This document shows positions 1-37,406 of a DNA stretch of 38,280 nucleotides, in pieces (positions within the stretch are counted from its first letter, which is position 1; each line of letters starts with the position of its first letter). The position numbers were made by a program, and so were the translations under genes. This stretch comes from Verrucomicrobiota bacterium. Its GTDB lineage: Bacteria > Verrucomicrobiota > Verrucomicrobiia > Palsa-1439. The notes beneath the pieces are model-generated. The model was not told the origin of the DNA and ran no database searches. It saw only the letters and a list, made by a program, of their open reading frames with translations. The stretch is from the NCBI GenBank assembly GCA_016871575.1, contig VHCW01000042.1, positions 1 through 38,280 on the forward strand. Reading direction: 5' to 3'.

Positions 1-12
1 CCCGCCCGACGC

Positions 13-373: not shown

Positions 374-380
374 GGTCGAA

Positions 381-409
381 CTTATACCAAGCAATGCACG
401 GCAAGTGAA
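381..409 (-). promoter_or_regulatory. candidate promoter of the AbrB-type gene
   Basis: On the minus strand TTCACT (404-409) and TATAAG (381-386) are separated by exactly 17 nt. Transcription would begin about at the GTG codon at 373, giving a leaderless message. This rests on consensus matching only. Confidence 0.35.
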
Positions 410-650
410 GCGGTCGTTTCTGTTAGCTTCGATATTTGTTCTTCCGGAACAAACCGGAACGCTAGCTTGCTTCAGGCGCGCGCGGGCATGAAGCCCGCGA
501 CTACCTTTTCCGCTTACAACGCTGAAACAATTGTTTCAGTGAAATAAGCGAAATAAGCACGAAGGGTATGGGGGGATGGCCAGAGCGATTGACAATGCTT
601 GTTGCCGCAGGCTTGCCTTGCCGTCGGGGTTGTGACAATCTCGCGCCACT
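395..650. other. divergent spacer with three palindromes
   Basis: This 256-nt stretch separates the minus-strand AbrB-type gene from the plus-strand esterase operon and holds no convincing gene. It carries a 7-bp inverted repeat TTTGTTC/GAACAAA (435-453), a 7-bp GC hairpin CGCGGGC/GCCCGCG (481-499), and an 18-bp perfect palindrome nested in a 40-nt symmetric element (511-550). A TTGACA hexamer lies at 589-594 upstream of the esterase, with no good -10 box at standard spacing. Confidence 0.6.
511..550. repeat. 40-nt symmetric palindrome with 18-bp perfect core
   Basis: The core CTGAAACAATTGTTTCAG (522-539) is its own reverse complement. Outer arms CGCTTA (511-516) and TAAGCG (545-550) continue the symmetry about the same centre after a 5-nt mismatch on each side. 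The position between two divergent genes fits an operator or a small interspersed palindromic repeat. Confidence 0.65.
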
Positions 651-1361
651 ATGAAACGTTGCCTTATCGCTCTCGCCATTGTTGCGTTGTTGCCACTCAC
701 TCTCACCGCCGCTGACAAGTCCACCAAGACGAGCCGGGCACGGAAACCAAGTCCTTCGTTGGAGAAGGTCGAGGATGTCGCCGGGTTGCCGCGCGTGATG
801 CTCATTGGCGATTCGATCTCGATGGGGTACACCGTGGCCGTTCGCGAGCTTCTCAAGGGCGTGGCCAATGTCCACCGGCCTCCGACGAACTGCGGCGACA
901 CCACGAAGGGACTCCAATCGCTCGACGAATGGCTCGGCACGGGCAAGTGGGACGTGATCCATTTCAACTGGGGCCTGCACGATTTGAAGTATCTCGACGA
1001 GAACAAGAAACTCACCACGCCCGACAAAGGTAAACAGGTCAATCCGCTGCCGGTTTATGAGAAGAACCTTCGCGAACTGGTCGCGCGCCTGAAGAAGACG
1101 GGCGCGAAGTTGATCTGGTGCAGCACGACGCCGGTGCCGGAGGGTTGCGACGGGCGCGTGAAGGGGACCGAGCTGGAATACAATAAGGTCGCGGCGAAGA
1201 TTATGAAGGAAAATGGCGTCGCCATTGATGATCTCCACGCTTTCGCAACGAAGCGACTCTCCGAGATTCAGCTTCCGAAGAACGTGCATTTCCACGCGGA
1301 CGGCTCGAAGAAGCTCGCGGAGCAGGTTGTCGCCAGCATCAAGTCGCAACTCGGCAAGTAA
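651..1361 (+). CDS. secreted SGNH/GDSL-type esterase
   Basis: A 236-aa protein with a Sec signal peptide (MKRCLIALAIVALLPLTLTAA) and one SGNH-hydrolase domain. Block I is GDSISMGY, with the nucleophilic serine. The central HFNWGLHDL segment supplies the block III-like region, and NVHFHADGSKKLA near the C-terminus holds the catalytic His. Such enzymes remove acyl groups, often acetyl esters, from glycans. It is the first gene of a four-gene plus-strand operon and ends 10 nt before the next start. The ATG at 651 has no recognisable ribosome binding site but directly begins the signal peptide. The exact substrate cannot be read from sequence; glycan deacetylation is inferred from the neighbours. 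Confidence 0.88.
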   Translation: MKRCLIALAIVALLPLTLTAADKSTKTSRARKPSPSLEKVEDVAGLPRVMLIGDSISMGYTVAVRELLKGVANVHRPPTNCGDTTKGLQSLDEWLGTGKWDVIHFNWGLHDLKYLDENKKLTTPDKGKQVNPLPVYEKNLRELVARLKKTGAKLIWCSTTPVPEGCDGRVKGTELEYNKVAAKIMKENGVAIDDLHAFATKRLSEIQLPKNVHFHADGSKKLAEQVVASIKSQLGK

Positions 1362-1371
1362 GGAGGTCGTT

Positions 1372-4300: not shown

Positions 4301-4638
4301 GCGAGGGTCGCGTGTTCATGGTCACCGATGAACCGATTGCCGGCGTCCTGATCGAAGCCGGCGACAAAGCCAAACTCGGCCAATCTGTTCCCTGCTGGAT
4401 TTCCATAGTGGACCAGATGTACCGTCCGATTGACGCCGTCATTCCCGTGCGCGTGGAGATTCGCGACCCGAGTGGCCGCGACGCGGAGTGGACCGGTTAC
4501 TACGGCGCGGCAGGTGGCCGGTTGTCGCTGAAGCTGGACTTCGCATCCAACGATTCGCCCGGCGTCTGGCAAATCCGCGTTCGTGAACTCGCTTCCGGCC
4601 AGATCGCGAGCCATTATGTGCGTGTGATGAGACCATGA
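1372..4638 (+). CDS. secreted LamG plus beta-galactosidase-like multidomain protein
   Basis: A 1088-aa protein with a signal peptide ending near residue 19. A LamG/concanavalin-like module covers about 40-250 (GLWQFQAG, FTIEMWIKP, WYHVAFTYNG, RFYRDG). An Ig- or Fn3-like stretch follows to about 355, then a long TIM-barrel-like region from HRMPVLMWGVG onward. Around 775-860 the pattern FRVLVMFDCDVLT...FQKKGGIIVGDE resembles the GATase-like trimerisation domain of GH42-type beta-galactosidases. The start is fixed by AGGAGG (1361-1366) before ATG 1372; a longer frame from 1213 lies inside the esterase gene and lacks a signal. It ends in an ATGA overlap with the next gene. It is probably a glycoside hydrolase on the cell surface or in the periplasm; catalytic residues and substrate are not assigned. 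Confidence 0.82.
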   Translation: MKCFVICVAVAVALTSMAAPRLSEPWQGVYTGASANGKDVIGLWQFQAGAETNDSSANKLHLKLQGAVIAKDGRFGSCLESFRGHPFGDKKHAAIVANKPVLTPKGAFTIEMWIKPKKDLEGYPEAFLLDKKYVADTDYQFVLSAASKGGGPRHLVMRLGFGDSSAAYSSESAQFEVGKWYHVAFTYNGAGEGRFYRDGAVFGGTTKPDRGSIVAGKQALHIGDRVGSLYHGFPGYIAQVRICSGVLEFRSAMFASVSDRDVFVRMEKTAELQFTVTNLQQMKLKGATAVFAVEGAAEKTLALPELNAGATHTIKFPFDASLRPGEYKLRASIHIPGDKPYTSEESFPVTIVSRPLPHRMPVLMWGVGAGNVLKELPRLKEIGFTHCLGMRADDRLVFEAGKPVAADDPEQVAEHKRMLNIALANDFGICTSLSPGRWAAGKKEFRRIDRKGKSNEERAAVCGLFPEVQKLCYNVGASMAQTYGAFPSWQAALLHTEVRDAAGVCYHDHDRAAYRKATGADIPAEVTAKSGVKYQDLKDFPADRVIPDDHPLYRYFQWYWKTGDGWNILNTELHRGLKSTGRNDLWTFHDPAVRVASVYGSGGAVDVISQWTYSYPDPIRIGVATDELFAMARGAANPQRVMKMTQIIWYRNQTMPAKKGDEVTKAVKSVFEDTDPDRIFPTIAPMHLREAFWTKMARPIQGIMYHGWQSLVPVEGSKSSYRYTHPQTQHELRRLVKEVVEPLGPALMQVPDRKSDVAYLESFASQMFARRGTYGWCHTWCGDAYQMLMWAQLQPEIVYDETVMQRGLDGFRVLVMFDCDVLTATVAAKAKEFQKKGGIIVGDERLCPAIKPDIVIQSYTRTRKADEDRAALMVKADELRKALDKRYSHYADSSNLDVVTRCRVFGKTDYLFAINDKREFGDYVGQFGLVLENGLPSKSILTLERQRGFVYDLIAGCAVPAAVAGNCLQIQSQLGPCEGRVFMVTDEPIAGVLIEAGDKAKLGQSVPCWISIVDQMYRPIDAVIPVRVEIRDPSGRDAEWTGYYGAAGGRLSLKLDFASNDSPGVWQIRVRELASGQIASHYVRVMRP

Positions 4639-6698
4639 AGCACAGCGTGTTGATTGTCGCGGTTCTTCTAGCGCAGGCGGCTGGGGCAAAGGAAGTGTTT
4701 CAGACGCCGAACAACGGCAGCAACCTCGGTGTCTGGCGCATCACCAACGAACCGGCAATCCGTCACTGGGCGAACTACCACAACACACAATGCTGGAGTC
4801 CTGACGGGCGTTATCTCTGTTACACGCGCTACGGATTGCTCGACGGCCGATATGGCGACGCCGCGGACGAGGTCCATCTCTACGATTTGCTCAAGAACGA
4901 AGACCGTCTTCTTGAGCGCGGTTTCAATCCGCGCTGGGCCAAGACGCGCAACTGGCTTTTCTATGTTCGCATCACCGGCGACGGAAGAGGCAAGCGCGAA
5001 CAGGTGGTCGAAGTCCGCTGGCTCGACCTCGACACGGGCAAGACAAAAACACTCGCGGCTGGCGTAGAGGCGCTTGGCGAAACCACGCACGACGACCGGT
5101 GGATCCTCGGCGCAAAACGCTTCCGTGGAGAAACCCCCGAGTTCGTCACGGTTCGTATCGCGCTGCCCGGCGGCGCGGTCGAGGAACTGCGCGAGGTCGT
5201 CGGCAGCCAGTTGCTGCCGAACCCGCGTTACCCTGTGTTCTTCACGCGCCAAGACCACAAGAGCGAGCCGTTCGGCGCGACGCGCTGGTTCTACGACCTC
5301 GACGGTCGCAACAAGCGCATGGGCGTGCCGACGCTCCAGCAGTGCCACATGAGTTGGATCGGCAACGGCGAGTTTCTGCTGCTCGGCAACGGCCTCGTGC
5401 GTGGACGCCGGTGGAACGAACCGTTCCCCAGCAGCGTTCACATTCTTGCGGCCATCGGCGTCGGTGACATCAGCCCCTGTGGACGCAGTGGCCGCTACGT
5501 TTGCGGCGACCACAACGTCGCCGACCTGCGTAGCGGCGATGGCCGGCATTTCATTGAGCCGCTTTCGATCATCTGTTACCCAGCGACGGTGAAAGACGAC
5601 TCCGGTATTTACGATGCCGACCCCAAAGGCAGCCCTGATGGCACGAAGATCTGTTTCGTGTCCAACTACGACCTCAAGGACGGCCCGCTGACCTGCGTCG
5701 AAAGTCCTTTGCGTGGCGATGTGTTGCAAGTCAAGTCCTCGGTGGGGTTCCCGGAGAGCGGTTCGCTCGTTCTGCGGCGCGAGGTGTTGGGCTACCGTCG
5801 AAAAACTCCAACCACCTTTGAAGGGGTGACTCGCAGTCTGCACAACACGATGCAAAGTCCGGCGACTCCCGGCGCGCCGGTAACCTCGTTCGAAGCGCGT
5901 TGCCTGACCGATACGCAATGGCGGCAAATCCCCGGCGCGCAATCAGCGATGCGCAAGTCCATCGGCGATGAAAGCCCAGCATTACTGCGTCAACGTCAGA
6001 CCGATGTCTATGTCACTGTCATTCGCAAACCCGACCGTCCATATTTGCGCGCGACCCAACTCATCCCCGGCGAGGAACACTACGAGACGGCTGGCTATCA
6101 TTTGCTTCGCGACGGGCGCAAGGTCACCGAGAAGCCGTTGCCGATTGGCGCGAGCATTGAGCTTCAGCCCGGCGAGTATAGGGCCATTGCAGTCGAGTGG
6201 TCCGGCTTGGAGAGCGAGCCGTCGCTGCCGTTGCGTGTCGAGAAGCCCGCGAAACTGCAAGTGCTGGCACAGCCGCCGCAGGACTTTTCTTGGACGAGCG
6301 ACCGTTGGCTGGAAGGACGGTCGGTCCGCGAGATCGTGCATCTCCACGATGGCGTCATTCACCGGGAATGGTATCGCAACGGCGTTCGCCTACAACGGCA
6401 CGATCTTAACGCTGAAGGCAAGGCGATTCGCCGGCTCGCATTCGAGAACGGCAAACTTGTGCAGCGTGAGTATCACGATAGCGACGGCAAACTGCTCAGC
6501 CGCGAACTGTTCGACGCGGCGGGCTTCATCACCGAGTGGATACGCTTTGACCAAACGGCGGAGCGGGACCACTGGTGGTTTGACCGCGGAATGCCGGTGA
6601 AACACATCTCGAAAGAAGGCGAGTTTGTGAAGCAGGGCGACGAATGGGTGGCGACGAAACAAGGCAAGCGCCAGGAAAAGAAAAAGCGGAACCGCTGA
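4635..6698 (+). CDS. secreted TolB-like beta-propeller protein with YwqK-like C-terminal repeats
   Basis: A 687-aa protein with a signal peptide (residues 1-18, MKHSVLIVAVLLAQAAGA). The N-terminal half is a propeller of the TolB/WD40-like or oligogalacturonate-lyase-like kind, with blades marked by CWSPDGRYLCYTR and KGSPDGTKICFVSNYDL. A region around 455-540 looks like an Fn3 fold (YETAGYHLLRDGRKVT). From about 560 a run of short strands such as HREWYRNGVRLQRHD, REYHDSDGKLLSRELFD and ITEWIRFDQTAERDHW resembles MORN_2/YwqK-type repeats. The tail is strongly basic (KQGKRQEKKKRNR). Its start codon overlaps the upstream stop as ATGA, indicating translational coupling. It may bind or cleave a uronate-containing glycan; no catalytic set could be confirmed. 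Confidence 0.8.
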   Translation: MKHSVLIVAVLLAQAAGAKEVFQTPNNGSNLGVWRITNEPAIRHWANYHNTQCWSPDGRYLCYTRYGLLDGRYGDAADEVHLYDLLKNEDRLLERGFNPRWAKTRNWLFYVRITGDGRGKREQVVEVRWLDLDTGKTKTLAAGVEALGETTHDDRWILGAKRFRGETPEFVTVRIALPGGAVEELREVVGSQLLPNPRYPVFFTRQDHKSEPFGATRWFYDLDGRNKRMGVPTLQQCHMSWIGNGEFLLLGNGLVRGRRWNEPFPSSVHILAAIGVGDISPCGRSGRYVCGDHNVADLRSGDGRHFIEPLSIICYPATVKDDSGIYDADPKGSPDGTKICFVSNYDLKDGPLTCVESPLRGDVLQVKSSVGFPESGSLVLRREVLGYRRKTPTTFEGVTRSLHNTMQSPATPGAPVTSFEARCLTDTQWRQIPGAQSAMRKSIGDESPALLRQRQTDVYVTVIRKPDRPYLRATQLIPGEEHYETAGYHLLRDGRKVTEKPLPIGASIELQPGEYRAIAVEWSGLESEPSLPLRVEKPAKLQVLAQPPQDFSWTSDRWLEGRSVREIVHLHDGVIHREWYRNGVRLQRHDLNAEGKAIRRLAFENGKLVQREYHDSDGKLLSRELFDAAGFITEWIRFDQTAERDHWWFDRGMPVKHISKEGEFVKQGDEWVATKQGKRQEKKKRNR

Positions 6699-7724: not shown

Positions 7725-10292
7725 TTACCGACCGGGCGCTAACAGCCGGTCCGGCGCCTGCGACCAGTAGGGCGGCAGGTTGTCGCTCAGCGAGATCGAA
7801 TAATCTTCCATCGTCCCCTGGGGCGCTCGCGACGGCGCAACCGACCACGCCTGGCCGTCCTGTCCCGCTGGCACTTGGATTTTGAAATCAACTTTCAGCT
7901 TCTCACCGGTGTGACCGGCGGCGACTTCCTTGCCGGACGAATCGAACACCGTCAGTTTCGCCGTCTCGCCGGGGCCGGGCGATGTGAGCGTGACGGTGAA
8001 GACCTTCGTCTTCGGCGGCACGTAGAACCACAACCGTCCACTCTCGCCGAGCAACGCCAGTTCGCGGCCGAGGATGACGGCGTGGTCGTTGTGCAGCGTG
8101 ACTTGCCCGGCGTTGCGGACGGTGCTCAAGACAAGGTTGCAGATGCCGCCCGCAGGCACGGCGACTTCGATGTTGGCCGTCTTCCCGGGTTCGATAGTAC
8201 CGTTGGCGAGCATTTGCCGCGTTGCCGAGTAAAGGTTCCATCGCGCCACTTCAACGTTGGCCTTGCCGACTTTGCGAATGGTGACCGTGGCGCGGAATTT
8301 TTCGTTCGTGCCAAGCGATGCAACCATGCCGAAGTTACCGCGAAGCGAGACGGGCGCGAGTTTCGCCGGCGCAACCGTTTCGGCAAGGGACTTCAGCGGC
8401 TGGCCGTTGTAGGCAACTTCACGAACGGCTTTCGTGTCGAACGCGCGCGACTCGACCCATGCGCAGTAAGCGAGGTTGACGACGTTGTCGTTCTCGATCA
8501 GCTTGCGATAGGCGCGCAGGTCGGAGAGCGCATCTTGAAGCGCCATGAACTCGCCGCTGGCGCGCGCCCGGCTTGCCGCAACGCATTTCTCGGCGTGTGT
8601 GAGGCCCTTTTCGAGGAACGCGACGCGCGCGACGGCAACGGTGTCGTTCTTCGCCGCGCTCGCAGCGGCGTCGAGCAATTTCCGCCCGCGCGCGAACGCG
8701 TCCGCCGTGAAACACTCGTGGGCCATGCGCGGGTAAAGCGCCCAGTTCGCTTTCAGTCTTTCCTGCGCAGCTTTGAATCGCTCGCGGTTGGTCGTCGTGT
8801 AGTTCTCCCAGTAGTCGAAGTACGCCTTCACCGGCTTCGCCGCCGGGCCGAAGCCGTTGTAATACTCCGCCAGCACATCGTCGGCTTTCTTGTCGAGACA
8901 ACTCTGCCAACGGGCAAACAGATACGTCTGCGGTCCTTGTGTCGCCCACATCGCAGTGAGCGAATCGAAGTCGGTCGCGATCATGCCGTTCTTCGCGTGG
9001 TGGGCGAACTCGTCGGAGAACTGATGCGTGTAGAGAAACGGCATGCAGTAACCTTCGAGCGTGTAATTCGGACGGAGAAACAGTTTGCAGCCGGTCTTCG
9101 CCCAGCCCTGCCACATCGCGATGCACTGTTGGTGTTCCACTTCGGTGCGCGGGAAGAATGCGTCGGGCACCAAGCCGATCCAGACGTGGTCGTTGAGCGT
9201 CTCACGCACAGGCGGTGGCGCGTAGTTGACGTAGGCGTAGCCGGTGACAATGACGTCGCGATCGTGCTTCGCCGCCATCTCCTGCAGCGTCCGCCAGAAA
9301 CGCGCGTACCGGTCGGAGACGATTCCGTGTTTGCTGAAACGCTCGGGGTAGAGTTTCTCGTCGGGCCGCGGCACATCCCACGCCTTGCAGCGGTCGCAGA
9401 CGCAACGTCCAAAGACATCGTTCTCGCAGCCGTTGATGTTCGGTTTGTTGTCGGGACTGGCGGCGCACGCCTTGAGCCAGTTCTCGATGATTTGCGCGTG
9501 GAAACCAGGGTTCGAGACGCACATGGCGGTCCGGTCGCCGCGATTGCCGTATTGGGGGCCGCGTTTGCCGTCGTCGAGCAGGTTGAACCAATCCGGGTGC
9601 TCCTTGCCGTATCGCTCCCACCACGTCGTAAACGAGTGTCCCCAGCGCATCTTCCGCGAATGTCCCATGCGCTGGCGGCGCAGCCATTTCTCCTGGTCAG
9701 CACGCACTTTCTTCAGTGCCTTCGGTGAGAACGTGTCGCCGCCCGACGCGCCGGGCCGTCCATCCAGCGTGCTGCGCAACCGGCGGATGATCAATTGCGG
9801 TGAGACTGTCTTGTTCGTGTCGGGTACGATGATGGTCTTTGTCGCCGGCACGTGCTCGCCGAGTTCTCCGGGCCAGAGCCAGCGAACGCCCATCACACTT
9901 TCCAGCAGTTCATAAACGCCGAACAATGTTCCCGCCCACGTGTCTGGATTGAGCGGCTTGCCATCGCTGTCGCGGCCCTCAATGTGGAGCGCGTTGTTTT
10001 CCGTGTGCAACGTGAACGAATCCGGGGAAAGTTTCGTAGTGGCTGGACTCAGGTACACCCGTGCGAGTCCTTTTGGTTCTTGCCCTTGGTTTACGACGGC
10101 CAGTTTTGCGCCGGTTGCCTTCTCGACGTGATAAACAAGTTCCTCTGCCGCATACTTCAGAACCTGCGAAGGTGCGGCAGGCAAGACGACGACGGCTCTG
10201 GCTTGGCCCTCGATGACGAGCGGCACCTCGGCGCGGCTGGCAGGGGACAGCAGAAACAGCGTGCAGGACAAGAGTGCTGGGTGGAGTTTCAT
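7725..10292 (-). CDS. secreted DUF4838 protein (glycoside-hydrolase-like), copy B
   Basis: An 855-aa protein with signal peptide MKLHPALLSCTLFLLSPASRA. An alpha-glucuronidase/GH20-like N-terminal domain follows (KYAAEELVYHVEKATGAKL, then FGVYELLESVMGVRWLWPGE, about 40-170). A large DUF4838 barrel comes next, containing a C-x-C-x2-C cluster at Cys297, 299 and 302, and a beta-rich C-terminal region about 690-850 completes it. DUF4838 proteins occur in glycan-degradation loci but have no activity I can name. The start at 10292 has GGGAG upstream and overlaps the UroD-like stop as ATGA, so a longer frame to 10421 is rejected. It is the last gene of the minus array and ends 4 nt from the convergent operon. 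It is a distant paralogue of the 18326-20728 gene. Confidence 0.85.
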   Translation of the reverse strand: MKLHPALLSCTLFLLSPASRAEVPLVIEGQARAVVVLPAAPSQVLKYAAEELVYHVEKATGAKLAVVNQGQEPKGLARVYLSPATTKLSPDSFTLHTENNALHIEGRDSDGKPLNPDTWAGTLFGVYELLESVMGVRWLWPGELGEHVPATKTIIVPDTNKTVSPQLIIRRLRSTLDGRPGASGGDTFSPKALKKVRADQEKWLRRQRMGHSRKMRWGHSFTTWWERYGKEHPDWFNLLDDGKRGPQYGNRGDRTAMCVSNPGFHAQIIENWLKACAASPDNKPNINGCENDVFGRCVCDRCKAWDVPRPDEKLYPERFSKHGIVSDRYARFWRTLQEMAAKHDRDVIVTGYAYVNYAPPPVRETLNDHVWIGLVPDAFFPRTEVEHQQCIAMWQGWAKTGCKLFLRPNYTLEGYCMPFLYTHQFSDEFAHHAKNGMIATDFDSLTAMWATQGPQTYLFARWQSCLDKKADDVLAEYYNGFGPAAKPVKAYFDYWENYTTTNRERFKAAQERLKANWALYPRMAHECFTADAFARGRKLLDAAASAAKNDTVAVARVAFLEKGLTHAEKCVAASRARASGEFMALQDALSDLRAYRKLIENDNVVNLAYCAWVESRAFDTKAVREVAYNGQPLKSLAETVAPAKLAPVSLRGNFGMVASLGTNEKFRATVTIRKVGKANVEVARWNLYSATRQMLANGTIEPGKTANIEVAVPAGGICNLVLSTVRNAGQVTLHNDHAVILGRELALLGESGRLWFYVPPKTKVFTVTLTSPGPGETAKLTVFDSSGKEVAAGHTGEKLKVDFKIQVPAGQDGQAWSVAPSRAPQGTMEDYSISLSDNLPPYWSQAPDRLLAPGR
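7730..7751. terminator. weak hairpin at the convergent 3' ends
   Basis: Arms GACCGG (7730-7735) and CCGGTC (7746-7751) with a 10-nt loop lie inside the last codons of the minus-strand gene and just after the plus operon stop. There is no T-run on either side, so a terminator role is only a possibility. Confidence 0.2.
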
Positions 10293-11383
10293 GGTTGCTC
10301 CCGTGGGATGTTCGATTTTGTGAATTGCTGACGGAGGTCTTCGACGGTCTCGAAGATGCTTGCGACTTGCGCGTCGGTGACGGTGTTGTCCATGTTGATG
10401 CAACAGACGCCGGTCAGCCACGGGTTCGCTGAGTGGCTTACCAAACGGATGATCGTTGCGCGAATCTCCTCCGTCGTCTGCCGTGTGATGCCGACGGGGT
10501 CAAGACGGATGTTCAGGAACGTGTGGGGTAGATGTTTGCGGACTTCCGCGATGTCGCCGCCCCAGCCGACATCGAGGAAATCCAAGTGCGGCACCTTTGC
10601 ATAGCTCGCAGCAAAACGGTGCGGGTCTTTGCCGCAGTGGTGGATGCCGAATGGGCGGTGGCGATTGCTCCACGCCGCGTCAATCGGCAACACAAGCCGC
10701 TCGTAGTCCTCGGCGGAAATCATCGTGTTGGAGCATTCCGAGTGCAGCCAGACCGGCTGGCGGAAGTGGCGCACAGTGCGGTTGACAGAAACGGAACTGC
10801 TGCTGGTTTCGGCTTCGATACCGTTGGCAAACCGTTCGATGACGGCGGCAATGTTGCGGAACGCCATTGCGACCGGCTCCGGCGAGTCGGCCATGTCGAG
10901 GAACAACTCCTGTCCACGCAAATCGAGCGCGAGGTTGAGGACGCCAGACCAATTGATGTCGCCGAGCAGGTAGCCGTAGCGTGTTTTCAGCGTGTCGCGC
11001 AGTCGCTCGAATCGTTTGAATGTCGCGCTGCGGAATGGCGCTTCAGCATCCACGTCGAGCCGGTCGCGATTGGCAGGAATGATGTCGGGCGGGGCGTCGG
11101 CGCGGTAGCGGACTTCGCAGCCGAGCATCTCCGATAGCAAGTAGCCGGCGGCGTTGTGAACCGCGCCGATGATTGGCAGGTCGCGGTTGCGGTCGGCGCC
11201 GAGACCGTGGCGGCCAAATCGTTCGTGGAGCACCGATTCCATTCGTCGTTCGCTCTCGACACGTTTGGCGGGGTGATAGAAGAAGTCCTCGTCGAAGCTG
11301 ATACCGGCGTGGGCGTGCCACCACGATGGGTGCAGCACAATCTCCACCGGCAACATCGTGTGGTCATGTTGGCTTGGAGTCAT
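10289..11383 (-). CDS. UroD/MtaA-family protein with a corrinoid-methyltransferase-type H-x-C...C motif
   Basis: A 364-aa cytoplasmic protein (no signal peptide) of the uroporphyrinogen-decarboxylase superfamily. Recognisable segments are CSNTMISAEDYERLVLP, GIHHCGKDP, and VCCINMDNTVTDAQV near the end. In the methylcobamide:CoM methyltransferases (MtaA/MtbA) of this superfamily, zinc is held by H-x-C and a later Cys. Here His248-x-Cys250 and Cys327/328 sit at the matching places, so a methyltransferase role is more likely than haem synthesis. ATG 11383 overlaps the GH28 stop as ATGA, and its own stop overlaps the DUF4838 start the same way. A longer frame to 11593 would lie inside the GH28 gene. 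No corrinoid-binding partner is in the window. A role in demethylating methyl-ether or methyl-ester sugars is inferred only from context. Confidence 0.8.
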   Translation of the reverse strand: MTPSQHDHTMLPVEIVLHPSWWHAHAGISFDEDFFYHPAKRVESERRMESVLHERFGRHGLGADRNRDLPIIGAVHNAAGYLLSEMLGCEVRYRADAPPDIIPANRDRLDVDAEAPFRSATFKRFERLRDTLKTRYGYLLGDINWSGVLNLALDLRGQELFLDMADSPEPVAMAFRNIAAVIERFANGIEAETSSSSVSVNRTVRHFRQPVWLHSECSNTMISAEDYERLVLPIDAAWSNRHRPFGIHHCGKDPHRFAASYAKVPHLDFLDVGWGGDIAEVRKHLPHTFLNIRLDPVGITRQTTEEIRATIIRLVSHSANPWLTGVCCINMDNTVTDAQVASIFETVEDLRQQFTKSNIPREQP

Positions 11384-28047: not shown

Positions 28048-29385
28048 CTATCTTGGCGCCGGTTCGCTGCCGTGGGCGAGCAGGTTGTTGGCGATCACGT
28101 TGTCTTTGCCGCGTTCGATGCGCAACGACGGGGCCGGTTTCCGGTCGGCGCGGTTATCGCGGATCAAACAGCCGGTGACGATGCTGCCGGTGAAATCGCG
28201 GAGCAACAGGCCGGCACCGTCGCTGTCGAGGATCGTGCAGTTGCCGATGTTGAAGCCGCTGCACTTCTCCAGCAGCACGGCGGCAGGCTTGCGCAACACG
28301 CCGTTGACACGGAGACCGCTCAAGGTGCAGTCCGTGCAGTTGGCGAAGACGATGCCGCCGTTGGCCTTCGCGGCTTCGCCGGTGAAGTAGCGCGGGTTCC
28401 GGTCGAAGCTGTTCGGGCCGACGACAACGTTGCTGCTGTCCTCGACCAATAGATCGTGCTCGTAGGCGGCCCCGAAACTATTGCCGCTGATGACGACGCC
28501 GCGCGCGTGACGGACGTGAACGTTCACGCGTACGTCGCTGAGGATGTTGTCGGCAATCGCGAGATGTCCCCACTGTGTCTTCTCGTCCTTGCCTTTGCCG
28601 AGGAACACGACGTTGGCGGAACCGGGCGTGGTGCCGGTGTGTTGCAGCGTGCAACCCACAATCGCCACCTCGGCGATGGAACCACCGGTGCAGTCGAGCA
28701 GAACGTTCGCGGTCGGGGGAGTGTTGGTGGACATGTTGCCTTCGATGTCGCACGTGCCGATTTGCAGGTTGCGGACGCCGCCGCCGCGCGACACGACCCC
28801 GCCGCCGGCGTTGTAGCTGATGTGGCAGCCGATGATGTTCGACTGGTGCAGGTCAACGTTGTCGTAAAACACGCCGACGCCGGTGTTGTTGTAGATGTGG
28901 CAATCACTGATGATGACGTTGCGATTGCGCGTGGTCAGATGAATGCCGTGGCGCGCCTCGCGCACGGTCGTGCGGGTGATGGTCAAGTGCATTGTCTTCG
29001 TCGCCTCGATGCCGTCGGCTTCGGGATGTGCGCCGACGATTTCGAGTCCGTCCACCATCGGCGCGCGCTGGCGTTCCCAAACGTTTGGCTTGAAGCTGCT
29101 TGGTCCCGCCGTGCCCTCGTGCGTGCCGACAAACTGGAACGCCGGTCCCGGACCCGCCATCACGATGCGCGCCGTGCCGTCGCCGATGAGCGATGTGAAC
29201 CCGGTCTTGTCGAGTTCGATGATCACGGTGCGCGTGAGCCGGTAGGTGCCGCGCGAGAAGCGGATCGTGCCTGTGCCGCTGTCCACGGCTTTCTGGATTG
29301 CCGCCGTGTCGTCCTTCGAAGGCACAAGCATCTGCGCGGATGCGGCGTGGGCAAGGACGAAAAGAATGCAAAGGATGTGTTTCAT
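28048..29385 (-). CDS. secreted right-handed beta-helix protein
   Basis: A 445-aa protein with signal peptide MKHILCILFVLAHAASA. The body is a parallel beta-helix: it starts with DDTAAIQKAVDSGTGTIRFSRGTYRLT and runs through repeated coils such as RNVIISDCHIYNNTGVGVF, NIIGCHISYNAGGGVVSRGG, GVVISGNSFG and FNIGNCTILDSDGAG. The fold is that of pectate lyases and other polysaccharide lyases or hydrolases. No GH28 catalytic blocks are seen, so lyase, hydrolase, epimerase or binding roles are all possible. AGGAG lies about 13 nt upstream of ATG 29385, a longer spacing than usual. It is 8 nt after the propeller gene and 7 nt before the GH109-like gene. Confidence 0.8.
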   Translation of the reverse strand: MKHILCILFVLAHAASAQMLVPSKDDTAAIQKAVDSGTGTIRFSRGTYRLTRTVIIELDKTGFTSLIGDGTARIVMAGPGPAFQFVGTHEGTAGPSSFKPNVWERQRAPMVDGLEIVGAHPEADGIEATKTMHLTITRTTVREARHGIHLTTRNRNVIISDCHIYNNTGVGVFYDNVDLHQSNIIGCHISYNAGGGVVSRGGGVRNLQIGTCDIEGNMSTNTPPTANVLLDCTGGSIAEVAIVGCTLQHTGTTPGSANVVFLGKGKDEKTQWGHLAIADNILSDVRVNVHVRHARGVVISGNSFGAAYEHDLLVEDSSNVVVGPNSFDRNPRYFTGEAAKANGGIVFANCTDCTLSGLRVNGVLRKPAAVLLEKCSGFNIGNCTILDSDGAGLLLRDFTGSIVTGCLIRDNRADRKPAPSLRIERGKDNVIANNLLAHGSEPAPR

Positions 29386-29393
29386 TGTTCTTC

Positions 29394-31232
29394 TCACTCC
29401 TGTTTCGGAAGTTGGCAACGCATTAGACGTGAACCGGCGCCGAAGTAAAGCATTCCGTTGTGCGTGATGCAGAAGCCGAAGGCTTGTTTCAACGATGGGT
29501 TGCGCGCGACGACTTTGGTGCTGTGGTCGGTGGGGTCAATCGCGATGATGGCATCCTCACCGAGTCCGTAGATCAAGCCGCGCGGGCCGAACGGTTCGTC
29601 GGCAAGTTCCGGGTAGTGCAGACCCTTGACGGGCAGAACGCCGGTGAAGACGGTTTTGCGCGCGACGGGATCGAAGACGTAGAACTTGGTTCCGCCGTCC
29701 GCAACACCATACACGAGTCCGTTGGCGGCGCGCACGACGGCGCCGTAGGTCTTCGTGCCCGGCAGCGGTTGCGCCGTGAACACGACTTTCTCCTGTTTGC
29801 AGTCCCAGAGGAAAATACAGGCTTCCTTCTCGGTGGGAATCGCCGAGGAACCGCCGTGGATGCTCGACGTGCCCAGCAACTCTCCCGTCTTGGGCACGCT
29901 GACGAGACGGTGAATGCTTTGATTGGTGATGATCTGTGTCCATGTCTTGTGCGAGAAATCGTCGGGGTTCACACGCACCAACGCGCCGCCGAGCCGGCCT
30001 TTGGATGGCCACGTGCCACTGTAGAGCATGGCGTCGGGACCGAGCGCCAACTGCGCCGGGCGTTCCTGGCCGTTGACGGTGATGATGTGGCGCGGGTTGT
30101 CGGGTTTGCGAATGGGCTGCGACGGGTCGAAGAAGTCCACGCTGGCGCGCATGTAGCTGCTCAGGAACAGCCCCTTCGAGTGGTTCAAGGTGTCATAGAC
30201 CTGAATCGGTCCGCTGGTGAGGATGCCGAAGTTCGTCATGCAGCCAGTGCGTGTGTCGTAGCGGAACGAGAATGCCGGGAACACAGTGCCACCGTAGATG
30301 CAACCGTCGCGTTCGCAGCCCACGCTGAAGATGTTTCGCGGCGATCCCTCGAAGCGCGTCTGAAGGAAACTGACGCTCTTGGTCTTTGCGTTGGTGATCG
30401 CAAGGCGGCCGTCGTCGCCGATGCTGCCGATGATTTTGTCGCCGATCTGCAGCGGGTTGGTCCGCCGGTGTGCCGGTTTCGTTTTGCCGACCGTGATGCC
30501 GTCGCGCCGGCACAGAAACACCGTGCCGCCGGCGCGGCCGTACACTTGGCCGTCGTCTCCGATCCACACACTCGGCGCGCCTTGGGCTTTCGTCAGCCCC
30601 GTCGGCAGAATCTGTTTTTTCTCGCCGGTGACGGCGTCCACGGCCCACAACTCGCGGTGATGAAGGCCGACGGGACAATAGACAACGTTGTCGTCACTGA
30701 TGGCCGGGTGGATGATGTAGCACTCCTTGGGATCGTCGGAGAGCCGTCCCAGGCTGTCCACTTTGCCGGTGCGCGGGTCGCAACGAACCAGCGTCGTCTG
30801 CGGATACGTGCCGACGTAGAAACACCCGTCCGGCCCGACCGCGCTGCCAATCCAGTAGGACGCGGGCTTGGCCGGCACGCCGAGGTCCGTTAATTTGCGT
30901 TTTACCACGTCGTACTTCAGGAAATGGCCGGGGTTGCCGGTGTAGGCGTAGAGGTTTCCATCCGCGGCCTTGGTCATCGTGATGTGGCTGCGGCCAAAGT
31001 GTGTCGTCTCCAGACGGATCACGTCACCGTTATCGAGCCGCACGCCGACGAGGGCATTCTTGTCCTCAGCTTCATACGCAGCCCACGCGATGTGATGGCC
31101 GTCCGGGTCGTGCGTAATCTGTTGCAACGCCAGCGTGCGGACGCGCGCCGCTTCGCCGAGGTCTTCCACCGTGACACCGGTCAGCAAGGAGGTGGCGACC
31201 GCAGCGAGAAGATGGGTGATGAGGAGTTGCAT
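29394..31232 (-). CDS. secreted beta-propeller protein of unknown function
   Basis: A 612-aa protein with a probable signal peptide (MQLLITHLLAAVATSLLTGV). The whole length is made of propeller-like repeats containing a D-G-x-x-Y/F/V turn: AADGNLYAYTGN, GPDGCFYVGTYP, GDDGQVYGRAGG, ERDGCIYGGTVFP, GPDAMLYSGTWP, AANGLVYGVADGG and THNGMLYFGAGS. This gives at least seven blades and probably more than one propeller or a large one. Such proteins act as lyases, lactonases or binding scaffolds; no catalytic residues can be pointed to. ATG 31232 is 4 nt after the upstream stop; a longer frame to 31304 lies in the methyltransferase remnant and lacks a signal. Confidence 0.78.
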   Translation of the reverse strand: MQLLITHLLAAVATSLLTGVTVEDLGEAARVRTLALQQITHDPDGHHIAWAAYEAEDKNALVGVRLDNGDVIRLETTHFGRSHITMTKAADGNLYAYTGNPGHFLKYDVVKRKLTDLGVPAKPASYWIGSAVGPDGCFYVGTYPQTTLVRCDPRTGKVDSLGRLSDDPKECYIIHPAISDDNVVYCPVGLHHRELWAVDAVTGEKKQILPTGLTKAQGAPSVWIGDDGQVYGRAGGTVFLCRRDGITVGKTKPAHRRTNPLQIGDKIIGSIGDDGRLAITNAKTKSVSFLQTRFEGSPRNIFSVGCERDGCIYGGTVFPAFSFRYDTRTGCMTNFGILTSGPIQVYDTLNHSKGLFLSSYMRASVDFFDPSQPIRKPDNPRHIITVNGQERPAQLALGPDAMLYSGTWPSKGRLGGALVRVNPDDFSHKTWTQIITNQSIHRLVSVPKTGELLGTSSIHGGSSAIPTEKEACIFLWDCKQEKVVFTAQPLPGTKTYGAVVRAANGLVYGVADGGTKFYVFDPVARKTVFTGVLPVKGLHYPELADEPFGPRGLIYGLGEDAIIAIDPTDHSTKVVARNPSLKQAFGFCITHNGMLYFGAGSRLMRCQLPKQE

Positions 31233-31236
31233 TTGA

Positions 31237-32223
31237 TCAACAGAGCAGGTCCTTGCGCGCCGCCGACACGATGCGCTCAATCTCTCGCGCCATCGCCGGC
31301 TCAACCGCAGGCGGCGGCTGGCTCGCCACCAGCTTGCGCCACGCGTCGTCGGCTTGTTTCAGGAGTTTGTCGTCGCCGCACGGGGCCGGCTCCGCGTGGT
31401 TGCAGTAGTTGCGGTCGAACAGTTGCGGGTTCCAGCCGATGTTCCGGAAATGTTTCGCGGTGTGTTCGCTTTCCAGATAGGTCTCCTTTTCGCAGAACAG
31501 CATCTCGTTGATCAAGTCCACCGCGCACGTGTCGGCGTTGACCTCGATGCCGCGGTGGAACCGGTAGATCGCCTCGTTGATGTCCAGGTCAATCATCGCC
31601 TGCGTCGGCGAGAACGCCGCGCCGTTGTCGAGCGCGCCGATGGCCAGCGGCAGGCTCACCGCGCCGCCAAACGCCATCTGCCGATACGTCTTCATGAACG
31701 CCGCCTGGAGGCCGGGGACTTTCGCCTCGACGTAGCCCGGCTCGACGTTGAGGACGATGCCGTAACGGTGACGGAACAGTTGATGCAACGCCACATCGGT
31801 CAGGATCGCCGCCGGCGTGCAGTAGCAAACCTGCGTCGTCTTCATGTCCATCTCGCCGGTGATGCTCGTCGCGAAATAAAAGAGGTCCGGGTTGATCAGG
31901 CTCGTGGCGGTGATGGAGCCGAGGATTTCCGCCGCGGCGACGATGGCCGCACCGGCGGGCGTCATTGGCGCGGTGGCCCCGAGGATGGGCATCGGAGCGA
32001 AATTGACCGGGAACCCGTAGCGTAACGCTTCCTCCAGCACCTCGCACGAGCGCGTGTCCACTTTCAACGGCGACGTGGTGCAGTAGGCGGCAACGAAAAT
32101 CGGCGGCTGCGTCTGCAACGCCTCGCGGTTGCCGCCCGTGACGAGCGACGCCAGTTCGGCCAGATATTTCACCTCGCGCGCCGCGCTGGTGCCGACCCAG
32201 CCGGGCTTCCGCGCGTCGGCGTG
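31237..32223 (-). pseudogene. MttB-family methyltransferase, N-terminally truncated
   Basis: Open frame for about 325 residues of a trimethylamine-methyltransferase (MttB) superfamily protein, readable from HADARKPGW at about 32223; a GTG at 32172 could start a 311-aa product. Family features are LVTGGNREALQTQPPIFVAAYCTTSPLK, GATAPMTPAGAAIVAAAEIL and a C-terminus ending RNIGWNPQLFDRNY. Members are usually about 480-500 aa, so roughly 170 N-terminal residues are missing. No in-frame TAG is present, so it is a non-pyrrolysine type. Upstream it runs directly into the 5' part of a sulfatase gene, which suggests a deletion fused two genes. If expressed it would lack part of the barrel and probably be inactive. 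The full-length ancestor would have moved methyl groups from a methylated amine or similar to a corrinoid protein. Confidence 0.8.
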
Positions 32224-32456
32224 CAGGAGGGTACCGGACAGAAGGCGTGTGTGAACAACGCACCTTCCTTGACCAACCGGTCAAACGCCGGCGTGGACAC
32301 CGTTCGATCACCAAGCGCGCTGGCGTGCGGCCACGACCAGTTATCGGCCAGAATGAGCACCAGATTCGGACGCTCGATCGGGGCGCCGGCGGATGCGAGC
32401 GTTGAAAGACCGAGAATGGAGAGGAATCCGGCTGCGATCCGTGTTTGTCTGTTCAT
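32169..32456 (-). pseudogene. sulfatase 5' fragment ending at the active-site signature
   Basis: A 95-aa frame with signal peptide MNRQTRIAAGFLSILGLSTLASAG and a clear sulfatase N-terminus (RPNLVLILADNWSWPHASALG, TPAFDRLVKEGALFTHAF). It reaches CPVPSCTPTR, where Cys78 is the formylglycine position, and then leaves the family pattern (GSPAGSAPARRAR) before a TGA. About 350-400 residues are missing. From the same point the DNA reads as an MttB-type methyltransferase in another frame. Its ATG still overlaps the upstream Gfo/Idh/MocA stop as ATGA, so the 5' end keeps normal operon structure. The product cannot be an active sulfatase. A metagenome assembly join is an alternative to a true deletion. 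Confidence 0.85.
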
Positions 32457-33805
32457 GTTTCCGTCCACTGGCCGGGGACCGGGAGAGGATAACGGCCATT
32501 GGCGTCGGCCTTTACGGGTGATGGGCTGTCGAGGTTGAAATCCACGTTGGGACAGAACTTGAACTTGGACGCCAACATCTCGTCCCACGTGATGACTTTG
32601 CCCGTGTGGATCGCGGCGCGCCCCATGATCGAGACGAGGTTCGCGTACGCTGCGCGCTCGATTTCGTTGTGCGGACGGTTCTGGCGGATCGCCGTCAACA
32701 GCGCGTCCCACTCAGCGTCGTAGGGGCTGACGGATTCCTTTTCCGGCCGCCACGAGACGTTGTCGTTGCCGCAACGATGGTCCTTGTACAACTGCACGGT
32801 CGGGGCATGCACATTTCCGGAGAACTGCCCGGCGCACTTGGTGCCGTGAACCCACGTGGCAAATTCATTCTGGCAGCGGGGCTGATTCCGGCTGTTGACG
32901 AATGCCGTCGTGCCGTCGGGGAACGCGTACTCGATGGCGTACGTGTGCAGGTTCTGGCTGTAATCGTCGCCGGCCGGCTCGCGTCCGCCCATCCCCCTGG
33001 CGGAAACCGGCCACGCATCCTTGATCCAGCAACACTCGTCCACTTGGTGAATCATCATCTCGATGAACCAGCCGGAAGAAACCCAGTGGAAAAAATAGGG
33101 GCGGCGCAGTTGCTGAAGCAGCTCGCTTTCGTCGGGCTTGAGCCGTCCCATCCGCGCGCCGGCGTCCATGCGATACGCGCGGATCGCAATGACATCGCCC
33201 ATCGCGCCGTCGCGAATCTTCTGGATCATGGCCTGTCGAGCCGCCGAGTGCCGGCACATCAGGCCGCAGCCGATCTTCAAGTTCTTGCGCTTGGCTTCCT
33301 CGCCCAGGCGAAGAACTTCGTGCGTGCCGCCGGGATCGGGCGCAAAGGATTTCTCCATGAACACGTTGATCCCTTTCTCGACCGCATACTTCAGGTGCGT
33401 GGGGCGAAACGCCGCGTGAGTGGCCTGGATCATCACGTCGCCCGGCCGCAGGCAGTCAATGGCCTTGCGATAAGCATCGAAACCAATGAACTGCCGTTCG
33501 GCCGGCACGTCCATTTGCCCGGCAAAGTGCGCGCTGAGCGACTTGTGGGCGCGCGCCATCCGGTCTTGAAACACGTCGGCCATGGCAATCAGTTTTGTCG
33601 GGCCTGATGTGGACGACTGGGACAAGGCGTTGGCCGCCGCGCCGCCGCCGCGTCCGCCGCAGCCGACGAGCGCCAGGCGGATCGTGTTGTCCTCGCCGGC
33701 GTGGACCTTGGGCAACGTAAGCCCGGCCAGCGCCGAGCCGGCGATCACGCGCCCGCTTTGCGACAGGAATCCGCGGCGGGAAATGGTGTTAGTTTGGGGT
33801 TGCAT
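32453..33805 (-). CDS. Tat-exported Gfo/Idh/MocA-family oxidoreductase
   Basis: A 450-aa protein with Tat signal SRRGFLSQSG (twin Arg 10-11) and a cleavage-like VHAGED near 35. The nucleotide-binding motif is GCGGRG (48-53). The second Rossmann half carries MEKSFAPD (150-157) in place of the common EKP motif. The C-terminal alpha/beta domain has FHWVSSGWFIEMMIHQVDECCWIKDAWP and a conserved WDALLTAIRQNRPHNEIERAA helix. These proteins are NAD(P)-dependent sugar oxidoreductases, and secreted relatives include NAD-bound glycosidases; the exact reaction is unknown. AAGGA precedes ATG 33805, inside the last 17 nt of the ApbE gene. Its stop overlaps the sulfatase fragment start as ATGA. Confidence 0.88.
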   Translation of the reverse strand: MQPQTNTISRRGFLSQSGRVIAGSALAGLTLPKVHAGEDNTIRLALVGCGGRGGGAAANALSQSSTSGPTKLIAMADVFQDRMARAHKSLSAHFAGQMDVPAERQFIGFDAYRKAIDCLRPGDVMIQATHAAFRPTHLKYAVEKGINVFMEKSFAPDPGGTHEVLRLGEEAKRKNLKIGCGLMCRHSAARQAMIQKIRDGAMGDVIAIRAYRMDAGARMGRLKPDESELLQQLRRPYFFHWVSSGWFIEMMIHQVDECCWIKDAWPVSARGMGGREPAGDDYSQNLHTYAIEYAFPDGTTAFVNSRNQPRCQNEFATWVHGTKCAGQFSGNVHAPTVQLYKDHRCGNDNVSWRPEKESVSPYDAEWDALLTAIRQNRPHNEIERAAYANLVSIMGRAAIHTGKVITWDEMLASKFKFCPNVDFNLDSPSPVKADANGRYPLPVPGQWTET

Positions 33806-34847
33806 GGTGTTTTTTTCCTTTCATTAGATTTGGCGGAAACCGCCGGCTGGGAACCAGGCGAAACGGCTCGGTTCCATTGCGGATGACAAACAACGCGGCA
33901 AGTTCCGGACGCTCCTCCACCCAGCGCAGGCCGCGTTCCAGTCCGAGCACGAACAACGTCGTCGCCGCGCCATCCGCCGTCAGCGCGTCGGGGGCGATGA
34001 CGGTCACGCTCGCCAAGTGATGTTCCACCGGCCGACCGGTGGACGGGTCGAGGATGTGCGAGCGGACGCGCCCGTTTGAGTCGCGAAAAAACTGGTGCGT
34101 GTCGCCCGATGTGGACAACGCGCGCCCCGACAACGGCACGACGGCGATCAATTCCGCGTTGCGCGTGCGACTGTAGTGCGGTCGTTCCACACCGACCTGC
34201 CACGGACGACCGTCGGGACGGACGCCGAGCGCGACGATTTCGCCGGACACGGACACGAACAGATTGGTGTGGCCGCGTTCGCGCAACAGGCGGGCGGCTT
34301 CATCGGCGGCGTAGCCCTTGCCAATTGCGCCGAGGTTGAGTTGCAACTCGGGAATGCTCTTTTGCAGTTCATTGCCAGCCGTGACGCGCACGTGTCGCGC
34401 GCCGCACCGTCGTTTTGCGGCGAGAATCTGTGCGTCGGCGGGCGTTTCGCCGGTGTGTTTCTGGGGACCGAAGCCCCAGAGATTGACGAGCGGTTCCATC
34501 GTCGGATCGAACGCGCCTTTGGAGTCGCGCGCCAGTTTCAACGCCCGGCGCGTGACCTGCGCCAACTCCGCCGAGACCTTGACCGGCGTGGTGGCTGTGC
34601 TGCGATTGAACCGGGACAACTCACTGTCGGGCAGGTAGTGCGACATCTGGCGGTTGATTTCGTTGAAGCGATGTTCCACGGCGGCGCGCAGTTCCGCGAG
34701 CAGTTCATCGGTCGGCGCTGCACCGGCGATCTTGACGGTGTACGTCGTGCCCATTGTGTGTCCGGTCCACGCCAGCATCTTTGACTGTGCCGCGCTCGCC
34801 GGCAGCGCGAGGACGAGTACCGCAAGACAATGCAGCCGCCAGGTCAT
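33789..34847 (-). CDS. apbE: FAD:protein FMN transferase (ApbE family)
   Basis: A 352-aa protein with a signal peptide (LHCLAVLVLALPASAAQ) and the full ApbE pattern: HTMGTTYTVKI near 30, SELSRFNRS near 75, KGAFDPTMEPLVNLWGFGP (110-128), LNLGAIGKGYAADEAARLL (170-188), HILDPSTGRP (264-273) and DALTADGAATTLFVLG near 287-302. The family attaches FMN from FAD to a Thr of target proteins outside the cytoplasm. No target domain (FMN-bind type) is visible in the window. Its place between a SUMF1 protein and a Tat oxidoreductase gene is unusual for a housekeeping copy. The start is one nucleotide after the upstream stop; its end overlaps the next gene by 17 nt. Confidence 0.93.
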   Translation of the reverse strand: MTWRLHCLAVLVLALPASAAQSKMLAWTGHTMGTTYTVKIAGAAPTDELLAELRAAVEHRFNEINRQMSHYLPDSELSRFNRSTATTPVKVSAELAQVTRRALKLARDSKGAFDPTMEPLVNLWGFGPQKHTGETPADAQILAAKRRCGARHVRVTAGNELQKSIPELQLNLGAIGKGYAADEAARLLRERGHTNLFVSVSGEIVALGVRPDGRPWQVGVERPHYSRTRNAELIAVVPLSGRALSTSGDTHQFFRDSNGRVRSHILDPSTGRPVEHHLASVTVIAPDALTADGAATTLFVLGLERGLRWVEERPELAALFVIRNGTEPFRLVPSRRFPPNLMKGKKHHATPN

Positions 34848-34848: not shown

Positions 34849-35811
34849 TCATTCTGGTGAGCAGGCGACCCGGAAACCGATGATGTCTATCTGCGGCAAC
34901 CACCAACGGCTCTTCGGCATCTGCGGGTCGTTCATGTGCCAGCCTTTTTCCTTGAAGGCTCTTGCCGCCGAGCGCAACTCGTCCGGCGGACTGCTGTGGG
35001 AACCGCCGCGGGCCACGTTCACTTCGCCCGTCTTCGGCCCGGTGGGATTCGCGAGTGGGGTTTCGCCGGCGCCTTCACGGTAGGCATCGGGCGCGTAGAA
35101 GTCATGGACCCATTCGTTGACGTTCCCGCGCATGTCGAAGAGTCCCCACGGGTTCGGCTTTTTCTTGCCGACGGGATGCGGCTCGCCCTTGGAATTGGTT
35201 TTGAACCACGCGACGTCCGTCAATTGCTCCGGGCCGTTGCATTCACCGAACGGCGTTGCGGTCCCGGCGCGCGCGGCGTATTCCCATTCCGCCTCGGTGG
35301 GCAGCCGGTATTTCTTGCCGGTTTTCTCCGAGAGCCATTTGCAGAACGTCACGGCATTGATCCATGACATGCCGAACGCCGGGTAATCCTTGCCAAAACC
35401 CATCGTCATGTCGCCATAGACCACGGTCGGTCCCGTGACGCCGTCCACGTCGGCGGACATTCCAGAATCATTCATCGCCGTGTCCTCGCCTTCCTCGGCC
35501 TTTTTTTTGCCGGCGGTCAATTCCGTGTAGTAGGAGAGGAACAACTCGATCGTGGTCTCGGTCGTGCAAAGATAAAAGGGGCTTACTTGCACCTTTCGTT
35601 GCGGGCCTTCGTGGTCCTTGCGGCCTGCTTCGGTGGCAGGGCTGCCCATCGTAAAGCTCCCGCCGGGGATGAGCACCATGTCGAAGGACAACTTGGCGCC
35701 GGCCTTGGTGGTAACGTTTTCCGTGTATTTGGGCGGCGGCGCGCCCGCTGCCACCCGCAACGTCGTGCCCATGCCAAGCAGAATCAGAAACACGGTGAAC
35801 ATGATTTTCAT
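34849..35811 (-). CDS. secreted SUMF1-domain (formylglycine-generating-enzyme-like) protein without the catalytic cysteines
   Basis: A 320-aa protein with a signal peptide ending near VAAGA (residue 24). A C-type-lectin-like SUMF1 domain follows: FDMVLIPGGSFTMGSPATEA, PAFGMSWINAVTFCKWLSEKTGKKYRLPTEAEWEYAARAG, GLFDMRGNVNEWVHDFY and a terminal GFRVAC. In active formylglycine-generating enzymes two Cys lie just after RGGS; here that stretch is RGGSHSSPPDELRSAAR (from 268) with no Cys, so it is unlikely to mature sulfatases. Its start overlaps the sulfatase stop as ATGA, hinting at a partner role such as glycan or protein binding. Its own stop lies 1 nt before apbE. Residues about 100-125 (KKKAEEGEDTAMNDSGMSAD) form a charged, low-complexity insert. 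Confidence 0.87.
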   Translation of the reverse strand: MKIMFTVFLILLGMGTTLRVAAGAPPPKYTENVTTKAGAKLSFDMVLIPGGSFTMGSPATEAGRKDHEGPQRKVQVSPFYLCTTETTIELFLSYYTELTAGKKKAEEGEDTAMNDSGMSADVDGVTGPTVVYGDMTMGFGKDYPAFGMSWINAVTFCKWLSEKTGKKYRLPTEAEWEYAARAGTATPFGECNGPEQLTDVAWFKTNSKGEPHPVGKKKPNPWGLFDMRGNVNEWVHDFYAPDAYREGAGETPLANPTGPKTGEVNVARGGSHSSPPDELRSAARAFKEKGWHMNDPQMPKSRWWLPQIDIIGFRVACSPE

Positions 35812-37406
35812 AGTGAGCCAATCTCTTTCATTCTTTGTGCGATTTTATTGATGAGCCGCGCGACATTGCCGCCGCTGCAATGCTGGCCGGCGACGGCGTT
35901 TTTCTTCCAATAATCCACGCCACTGAGGATGCCTTCTTGTTTCAAAATGTCAACTGCCGCGTTGAGATTGTCGGACGGTTTGAATTTCCGGGCCGCCGCG
36001 ATCAGCAAGTCTGCCGCGCGCGCGCCCTCCACCTGTCCCTTGGCGACAGCGTTCGCAAGCCAATAGTCGGCATCGGCGAGAACCTTCTTCTCAACAAGCA
36101 ATCGCACATCAGCCTTCAGATCGGGTGTGGCCTCCGGTCGCAATACTTGGCGTGACGGTTGGCTTTGTGCTCCGGCGCGGAGTTGGTCGAGTGCCTCCTG
36201 CAATCGCCGTTTTGCTTCGGCATCGTTGGTGGGCTTCTCAGCTAGTGGAGAATCGCTGATGTCCACGAACTTGCCGTCGCCGTACAGTTTGTAACGCTGG
36301 TCGGCAATGAAATACTCGCGCCCGACTTGTGCATAGACCCACGGACGCGGACGACCGGGCTTGCCAAGGATTTGCAGCGCGATGCTGTGACCGTCGAGCT
36401 TGAGTCCTTCCGGTGGCTTGGTTCCGGTCAGTTCCAGTACCGTCGGGAAGAAATCGGTGAAGTCGGTCAAGTCGGCGCAGACCGTGCCCGCCGGCACGCG
36501 ACCGGGACAATTGACGATCAACGGCTCGCGGACACCGCCTTCCGTGAGGTCCAATTTGGCGCCGAGCATGGGCTGGCCGCGGATGGTGCCGAGAGGATTG
36601 CCGTACGGACCGTTGTCGGAGGTGAAGAGGATGATGGTGTTGTCGCGGAGTTTGAGTCGCTCCAAATCGGCGACGAGCAGTCCCATTTGTTTGTCGAGAT
36701 AAGCGACCATGTCAACGACGAGGTTCTTGTCGTCCTTGCTGTCCGGCGTCCGCACAAACGGACCGTGCGACAGCACCGCCGAGTAATACACGAAAAACGG
36801 ACGGTTGCGATGACGTTTCATGAAGTCCACAAGGAACGCGTGTGTTAGGTCTGGGCCAAACTCCTCCGGCTTGCCCTGCACGACCTCGCCGTTGCGGTAG
36901 TAGCGCGGGTTCCAGTAACGGTCGGGCGTGGCGCGACCCATCCAGAGCATGGACTCGTCGAAGCCGAGACGTTTCGCTGCCCCGGCGTCATCAGCCGGGG
37001 CGCTCTGGCCGAGTTTGCCGATGGCACAGGTCGCGTAGCCGGCTTGCTGAAGAACGGTTGGGATGATCGGGTGAACGGCGGGATTAATCTCGGAGTTGCC
37101 GTTGCTGGTTGCGCCGGTACGGAACGGATACTTGCCCGTCAGCAACGCCGCGCGCGACGGCCCGCACAACGGCATCGAGTAACAACGCTCAAAACGGAGC
37201 CCCGTGGCGGCCAACTTGTCCAAGTGCGGCGTCTTGAACGGCTCGGCTCCGTAGCAAGAGACACGCGACAGGCCGACATCGTCCGACAGCACGAGGATGA
37301 TGTTTGGTTTATCCGCCGTGGCGGACTTGCCTACCGTGGCAGGTTTGTTCGCCGCCTGAAGCGCGGCAGCAAGGATACTCAGCCCTATCAACGCTCGTTT
37401 CAGCAT
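35808..37406 (-). CDS. secreted sulfatase with a duplicated C-terminal repeat domain
   Basis: A 532-aa protein with an N-terminal signal (MLKRALIGLSILAAALQAA) and a type I sulfatase domain to about residue 395. Metal ligands are Asp42-Asp43 (ILVLSDDVG), the signature is Cys81-Gly-Pro-Ser-Arg (LCGPSRAALLTGKYP), and IILFTSDNGPYG and IRGQPMLGAKLDLTEGGVREP are also present. The C-terminus adds a linker and two copies of an about 41-residue unit (434-474 and 485-525), each with VLxxxDYW or ILxxxDYW, then NAVA, a Gly-rich turn and a helix. This is the first gene of the minus array. ATG 37406 has only a weak CAGG upstream. It probably removes sulfate from a polysaccharide, with the repeats serving binding or anchoring. 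Confidence 0.94.
   Translation of the reverse strand: MLKRALIGLSILAAALQAANKPATVGKSATADKPNIILVLSDDVGLSRVSCYGAEPFKTPHLDKLAATGLRFERCYSMPLCGPSRAALLTGKYPFRTGATSNGNSEINPAVHPIIPTVLQQAGYATCAIGKLGQSAPADDAGAAKRLGFDESMLWMGRATPDRYWNPRYYRNGEVVQGKPEEFGPDLTHAFLVDFMKRHRNRPFFVYYSAVLSHGPFVRTPDSKDDKNLVVDMVAYLDKQMGLLVADLERLKLRDNTIILFTSDNGPYGNPLGTIRGQPMLGAKLDLTEGGVREPLIVNCPGRVPAGTVCADLTDFTDFFPTVLELTGTKPPEGLKLDGHSIALQILGKPGRPRPWVYAQVGREYFIADQRYKLYGDGKFVDISDSPLAEKPTNDAEAKRRLQEALDQLRAGAQSQPSRQVLRPEATPDLKADVRLLVEKKVLADADYWLANAVAKGQVEGARAADLLIAAARKFKPSDNLNAAVDILKQEGILSGVDYWKKNAVAGQHCSGGNVARLINKIAQRMKEIGSL

Follow-up and report, generated by a model that had tools for sequence, protein, structure and literature searches.

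Does the region at positions 32456-31237 (minus strand), which begins as a sulfatase gene and ends as an MttB-superfamily methyltransferase gene, record a real rearrangement, an error of library or assembly, or a fused gene that is still in use? The window analysed here, 38,280 nucleotides long, covers contig C42 in full; the contig belongs to a draft genome of 257 contigs (5.19 Mb, 95% complete). On the minus strand, the fused region is preceded by a sulfatase (35808-37406), an FGE-like gene (34849-35811), ApbE (33789-34847) and an intact Gfo/Idh/MocA-type oxidoreductase (32453-33805; an open reading frame whose weak match to PF22725 falls short of the curated cut-off). It is followed by a gene for a DUF6923-like repeat protein of ~612 amino acids (29394-31232; PF21959, E = 1.3e-6), a beta-helix protein gene (28048-29418) and onward. 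The spacing at both outer ends is normal, as had been described in the initial annotation of this DNA: the ATG of the sulfatase overlaps the stop codon of the oxidoreductase as ATGA (32456-32453), and the ATG of the next gene, at 31232, lies 4 nt past the mttB stop codon.

The 5' part of the region (32211-32456, minus strand) encodes the first 82 codons of a secreted sulfatase, from the signal peptide through CTPTR, a C-x-P-x-R motif at residues 78-82 (Cys78). Read in frame from the ATG at 32456, it matches positions 1-54 of the 301 positions of the Sulfatase profile PF00884 (E = 9.4e-10), and it is 64-68% identical to the N-termini of the closest intact sulfatases, which were found in other genomes of the class. 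Similarity to the family ends directly after CTPTR, and the complete catalytic domain of PF00884 is absent. Where the closest intact sulfatases (in genomes G044 and G028) read PSCTPTRNAMLTG, the window reads PSCTPTRGSPAG; after CTPTR its frame goes on as GSPAGSAPARRAR and then stops. This continuation (32169-32210, minus strand) is a translation of mttB DNA into 13 unrelated codons followed by TGA (32171-32169), and intact sulfatase homologues extend for ~395 residues past the point where the window's frame leaves the family. The remnant shares the signal peptide, the N-terminal part and the CTPTR motif with formylglycine sulfatases (PF00884), but all sequence past the motif is missing.

The genome is rich in sulfatases, with 40 N-terminal matches. 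The minus strand of contig C123 (positions 10590-10949; locus L141) carries another sulfatase 5' end that lacks the rest of the gene. It extends from the signal peptide to about REGILLT and then runs into unrelated sequence and a stop codon, downstream of a beta-helix protein gene. Hence, such remnants do occur in this genome.

The 3' part of the region (31237-32213, minus strand), in a frame that differs from that of the sulfatase, consists of the last 324 codons and the stop codon of an MttB-superfamily methyltransferase gene, as indicated by a match to positions 192-493 of the 500 positions of PF06253 (E = 1e-38) and by its identity to homologues. It is open, without internal stop or frameshift, to the native TGA at 31239-31237. 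Intact MttB proteins of ~490 amino acids in four genomes (G052, G028, G013 and G036) are 88-90% identical to it from ARKPGW onward. At the position of ADARKPGWVG in the window these homologues read LLLLNTRKPGWVG, with LLLLNT preceding RKPGW. A full-length MttB was not found in the window, where residues 1 to about 175 are absent. The nearest named carriers of this mttB are mostly Verrucomicrobia metagenome bins. The remnant is closely homologous to intact members of the non-pyrrolysine MttB superfamily (PF06253; e.g. MtyB, PMC8604678) and, like them, has no in-frame amber codon. It differs from them in that its first ~175 codons are gone, and no adjoining corrinoid gene was seen beside its intact relatives. 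Only in characterised members of the superfamily is it established that a methyl group passes from methylated amines to corrinoid proteins (PMC8604678).

Comparison with intact homologues of both genes narrowed the break to ~5 nt (32213-32209, minus strand). The DNA of sulfatase homologues (L110, L126) agrees with the window up to and including CGC at 32211, the DNA of mttB homologues (L023-L026, L029) matches it from about 32213, and blastn similarity to intact mttB starts at 32211-32216. The partial matches to PF00884 and PF06253 abut exactly. The fusion of a sulfatase 5' end to an MttB 3' end, as claimed in the initial annotation, is thus borne out by the Pfam matches and by the divergence of both sets of homologues at the same point, and the homologue comparison likewise shows two truncated genes that meet at one breakpoint and have intact outer ends. 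The same annotation held that both readings share the bases at the join. This is correct for ~3 nt (CGC, 32213-32211), which fit both parent genes and probably represent the true overlap; the ~20 nt originally described are two open frames that overlap, not two homologies.

We consider that the region probably consists of two pseudogene remnants left by a real and recent illegitimate recombination in the lineage of this genome. A break-and-join event would have linked codon 82 of the sulfatase to about codon 176 of mttB by non-homologous recombination with an overlap of ~3 nt, in a local deletion or in a rearrangement over a longer distance. The joining would have taken place in the cell, and neither remnant is likely to be functional: almost the entire catalytic domain is missing from the sulfatase piece, and the N-terminal third from the MttB piece. 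Spontaneous deletions and rearrangements with short overlaps, as in Salmonella (PMC3411829), likewise have one breakpoint, two unrelated coding sequences and a short shared stretch. However, Salmonella deletion junctions confirmed by experiment have overlaps of at least 8 bp (PMC3411829), whereas the overlap in the window is ~3 nt and the event is deduced from its junction. The shortness of this overlap counts against recombination, as joins of two random points in the window share at least 3 nt in 6.4% of simulated cases.

The missing parts of the two genes bear on the same question. About 1.2 kb or, judged by the homologue in G044, about 395 codons of the sulfatase are absent, together with about 0.53 kb or 175 codons of mttB, in agreement with the earlier estimates of ~1.1 kb and 0.5 kb. 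The missing 3' half of the sulfatase was not found in the own assembly, where the best match is 53% identical (contig C21); this and the other leading matches that were read (C49, C114) lie in sulfatases with their own start. The assembly contains no missing 5' half of mttB except the N-terminal half of a paralogue on contig C92, an intact second mttB that is 67% identical to the window copy. The fused stretch itself is single-copy, without a second copy in the own genome. Because both missing halves are absent from an assembly that is 95% complete, a real event is favoured, although a metagenome-assembled genome may miss these halves merely through unbinned short contigs, which weakens the case for recombination.

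The main alternative is a chimera of library or assembly, in which the sulfatase and mttB loci of the same or of a co-occurring organism were misjoined and both genes are intact in nature. The draft state of the assembly, with its 257 contigs, would allow for such an error. Assemblers use k-mer overlaps that far exceed 3 nt, and hence a chimeric molecule would need to dominate to produce this join; the absence of both missing halves likewise argues against a misjoin. Furthermore, over 6 kb past the junction the tetranucleotide composition resembles that of the own genome about as closely as own segments resemble one another (0.56 versus 0.58), although this test is too weak to decide the matter. 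Conversely, the overlap is as short as in random chimeras, and split reads with short overlaps in Salmonella 454 data were indistinguishable from library chimeras (PMC3411829). The absence of any syntenic relative, broken or unbroken, and of any decay in the mttB piece also suits a misjoin. On balance we regard a chimera as unlikely, yet as an explanation that deserves serious weight.

How little the mttB piece has decayed is evident from 99 alignment columns without variation among 25 homologues: none of these columns has changed in the window. Since the piece has no stop, no frameshift and no change at these positions, the break is either an artefact or very recent, which accords with the recent event proposed earlier. 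The invariant codons comprise about 223 non-synonymous sites, and as none of these has changed, neutral divergence since the break is below ~1.3%; dating by decay yields an upper bound only. The synonymous divergence (dS) of the piece from its four nearest relatives is 0.47-0.67, compared to 0.43-0.63 among these relatives themselves. In contrast, its dN is about twice that of its sisters (0.054-0.063 versus 0.019-0.035), and the branch of the window protein is 3-6 times longer than theirs (0.10 versus 0.017-0.036). The extra changes fall on family-variable positions, and 17 of 21 are states that other homologues also show. They look as if constraint had been relaxed before the break, rather than as if decay had followed it.

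Relatives were searched for the fusion and for an unbroken version of the locus. Neither 57 relatives nor 24 homologous loci in a GTDB-wide scan showed the fusion, and the native N-terminus of MttB was kept wherever the contig did not end within the locus. As none of these homologues is fused, a conserved fused gene, named earlier as the finding that would overturn a deletion, was rejected. The undeleted locus that the initial annotation proposed to look for did not emerge either: searches that started from mttB, from the 5' end of the sulfatase or from either flanking gene revealed no relative with a window-type sulfatase and mttB adjoining, which counts against recombination. Nor was an undeleted arrangement of either flanking gene present among 384 genomes of the class, a sample without a close strain.

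The genes around mttB differ among the relatives. The mttB gene is preceded by a Gfo/Idh oxidoreductase in G052, G028, G013 and G036, as well as on the own contig C92; a ceramidase-like gene lies between mttB and an amino-acid permease in G028 and G013, and the permease follows mttB directly in G052. These mttB islands hold Gfo/Idh oxidoreductases, an open reading frame of ~136 amino acids, the ceramidase-like gene and the permease, and none of their genes was found in the window. No corrinoid gene occurs among the tested neighbours of mttB in the relatives; the suggestion that a corrinoid-protein gene was lost with the deleted stretch is therefore unsupported by these islands. Orthologues of the downstream gene (63-65% identity) in G028, G013 and G020 are located on other contigs, not beside mttB. 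Relatives of the upstream oxidoreductase occur in 58 of the 384 class genomes; a sulfatase adjoined none of the 15 loci that were read, and an FGE-like gene lies beside such a relative in G056 and G032. Gene order is too mobile to tell whether the sulfatase and mttB were formerly adjacent. As the two are adjacent in no relative and both flanking genes have their orthologues elsewhere, a local deletion and a longer-range rearrangement are equally possible.

One special case of recombination would be the insertion of a 3' fragment of mttB after codon 82 of the sulfatase, beside the downstream gene. The mttB of relatives never adjoins the downstream gene or a matching sulfatase, and similarity to their mttB regions stops at the stop codon, as would be expected from an insertion. 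However, this scenario calls for another breakpoint that coincides exactly with the mttB stop, where a native gene boundary would require none, and the loss of the sulfatase 3' part is still required; we consider it improbable.

That the region is still in use, with the sulfatase start and a GTGA-coupled re-initiation at GTG 32172 yielding a 311-amino-acid MttB C-terminal protein of retained or new role, is hardly credible: although GTG 32172-32170 does overlap the TGA at 32171-32169, the 311-amino-acid frame is open and every family-invariant position is retained, the GTGA belongs to the native mttB sequence (intact relatives encode Glu-Val-Lys there) and the start-stop overlap is hence coincidental, the N-terminal third of MttB is gone, the fusion is present in no other genome searched, and the longer protein branch and doubled dN at equal dS suggest relaxed rather than new constraint.

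If the recombination is real, the cell loses one of many sulfatases and one of two mttB copies, with the mttB on C92 staying intact. This would be one more fresh gene loss in a sulfatase-rich genome, an ordinary event that means little beyond annotation. If the join is artificial, contig C42 is chimeric at 32.2 kb. Automated annotation could wrongly call a 311-amino-acid 'trimethylamine methyltransferase' and a short 'sulfatase' here.

Some further observations were made at other mttB loci. On contig C92 of the own genome (14050-16890; L027), the Gfo/Idh oxidoreductase that precedes the intact mttB shares 75% identity with its counterpart next to mttB in G052, and this mttB paralogue is ~93% identical to the mttB of G044. 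Contig C50 of G036 (L140, minus strand) carries two MttB C-terminal remnants (7874-8275 and 8780-9214), ~0.9 kb apart, each with about 60-75 matching residues. On the same contig and strand, positions 1-6350 contain a reverse-transcriptase-like open reading frame, in which a YTDD motif is present, together with several FGE-type C-terminal ends, which carry N-rich RGGSWNNN/RNNNTPDNRNNNIGFR variants; a large kinase/NACHT-like protein with an FGE domain adjoins them. By eye, this stretch resembles a diversity-generating retroelement that has several targets.
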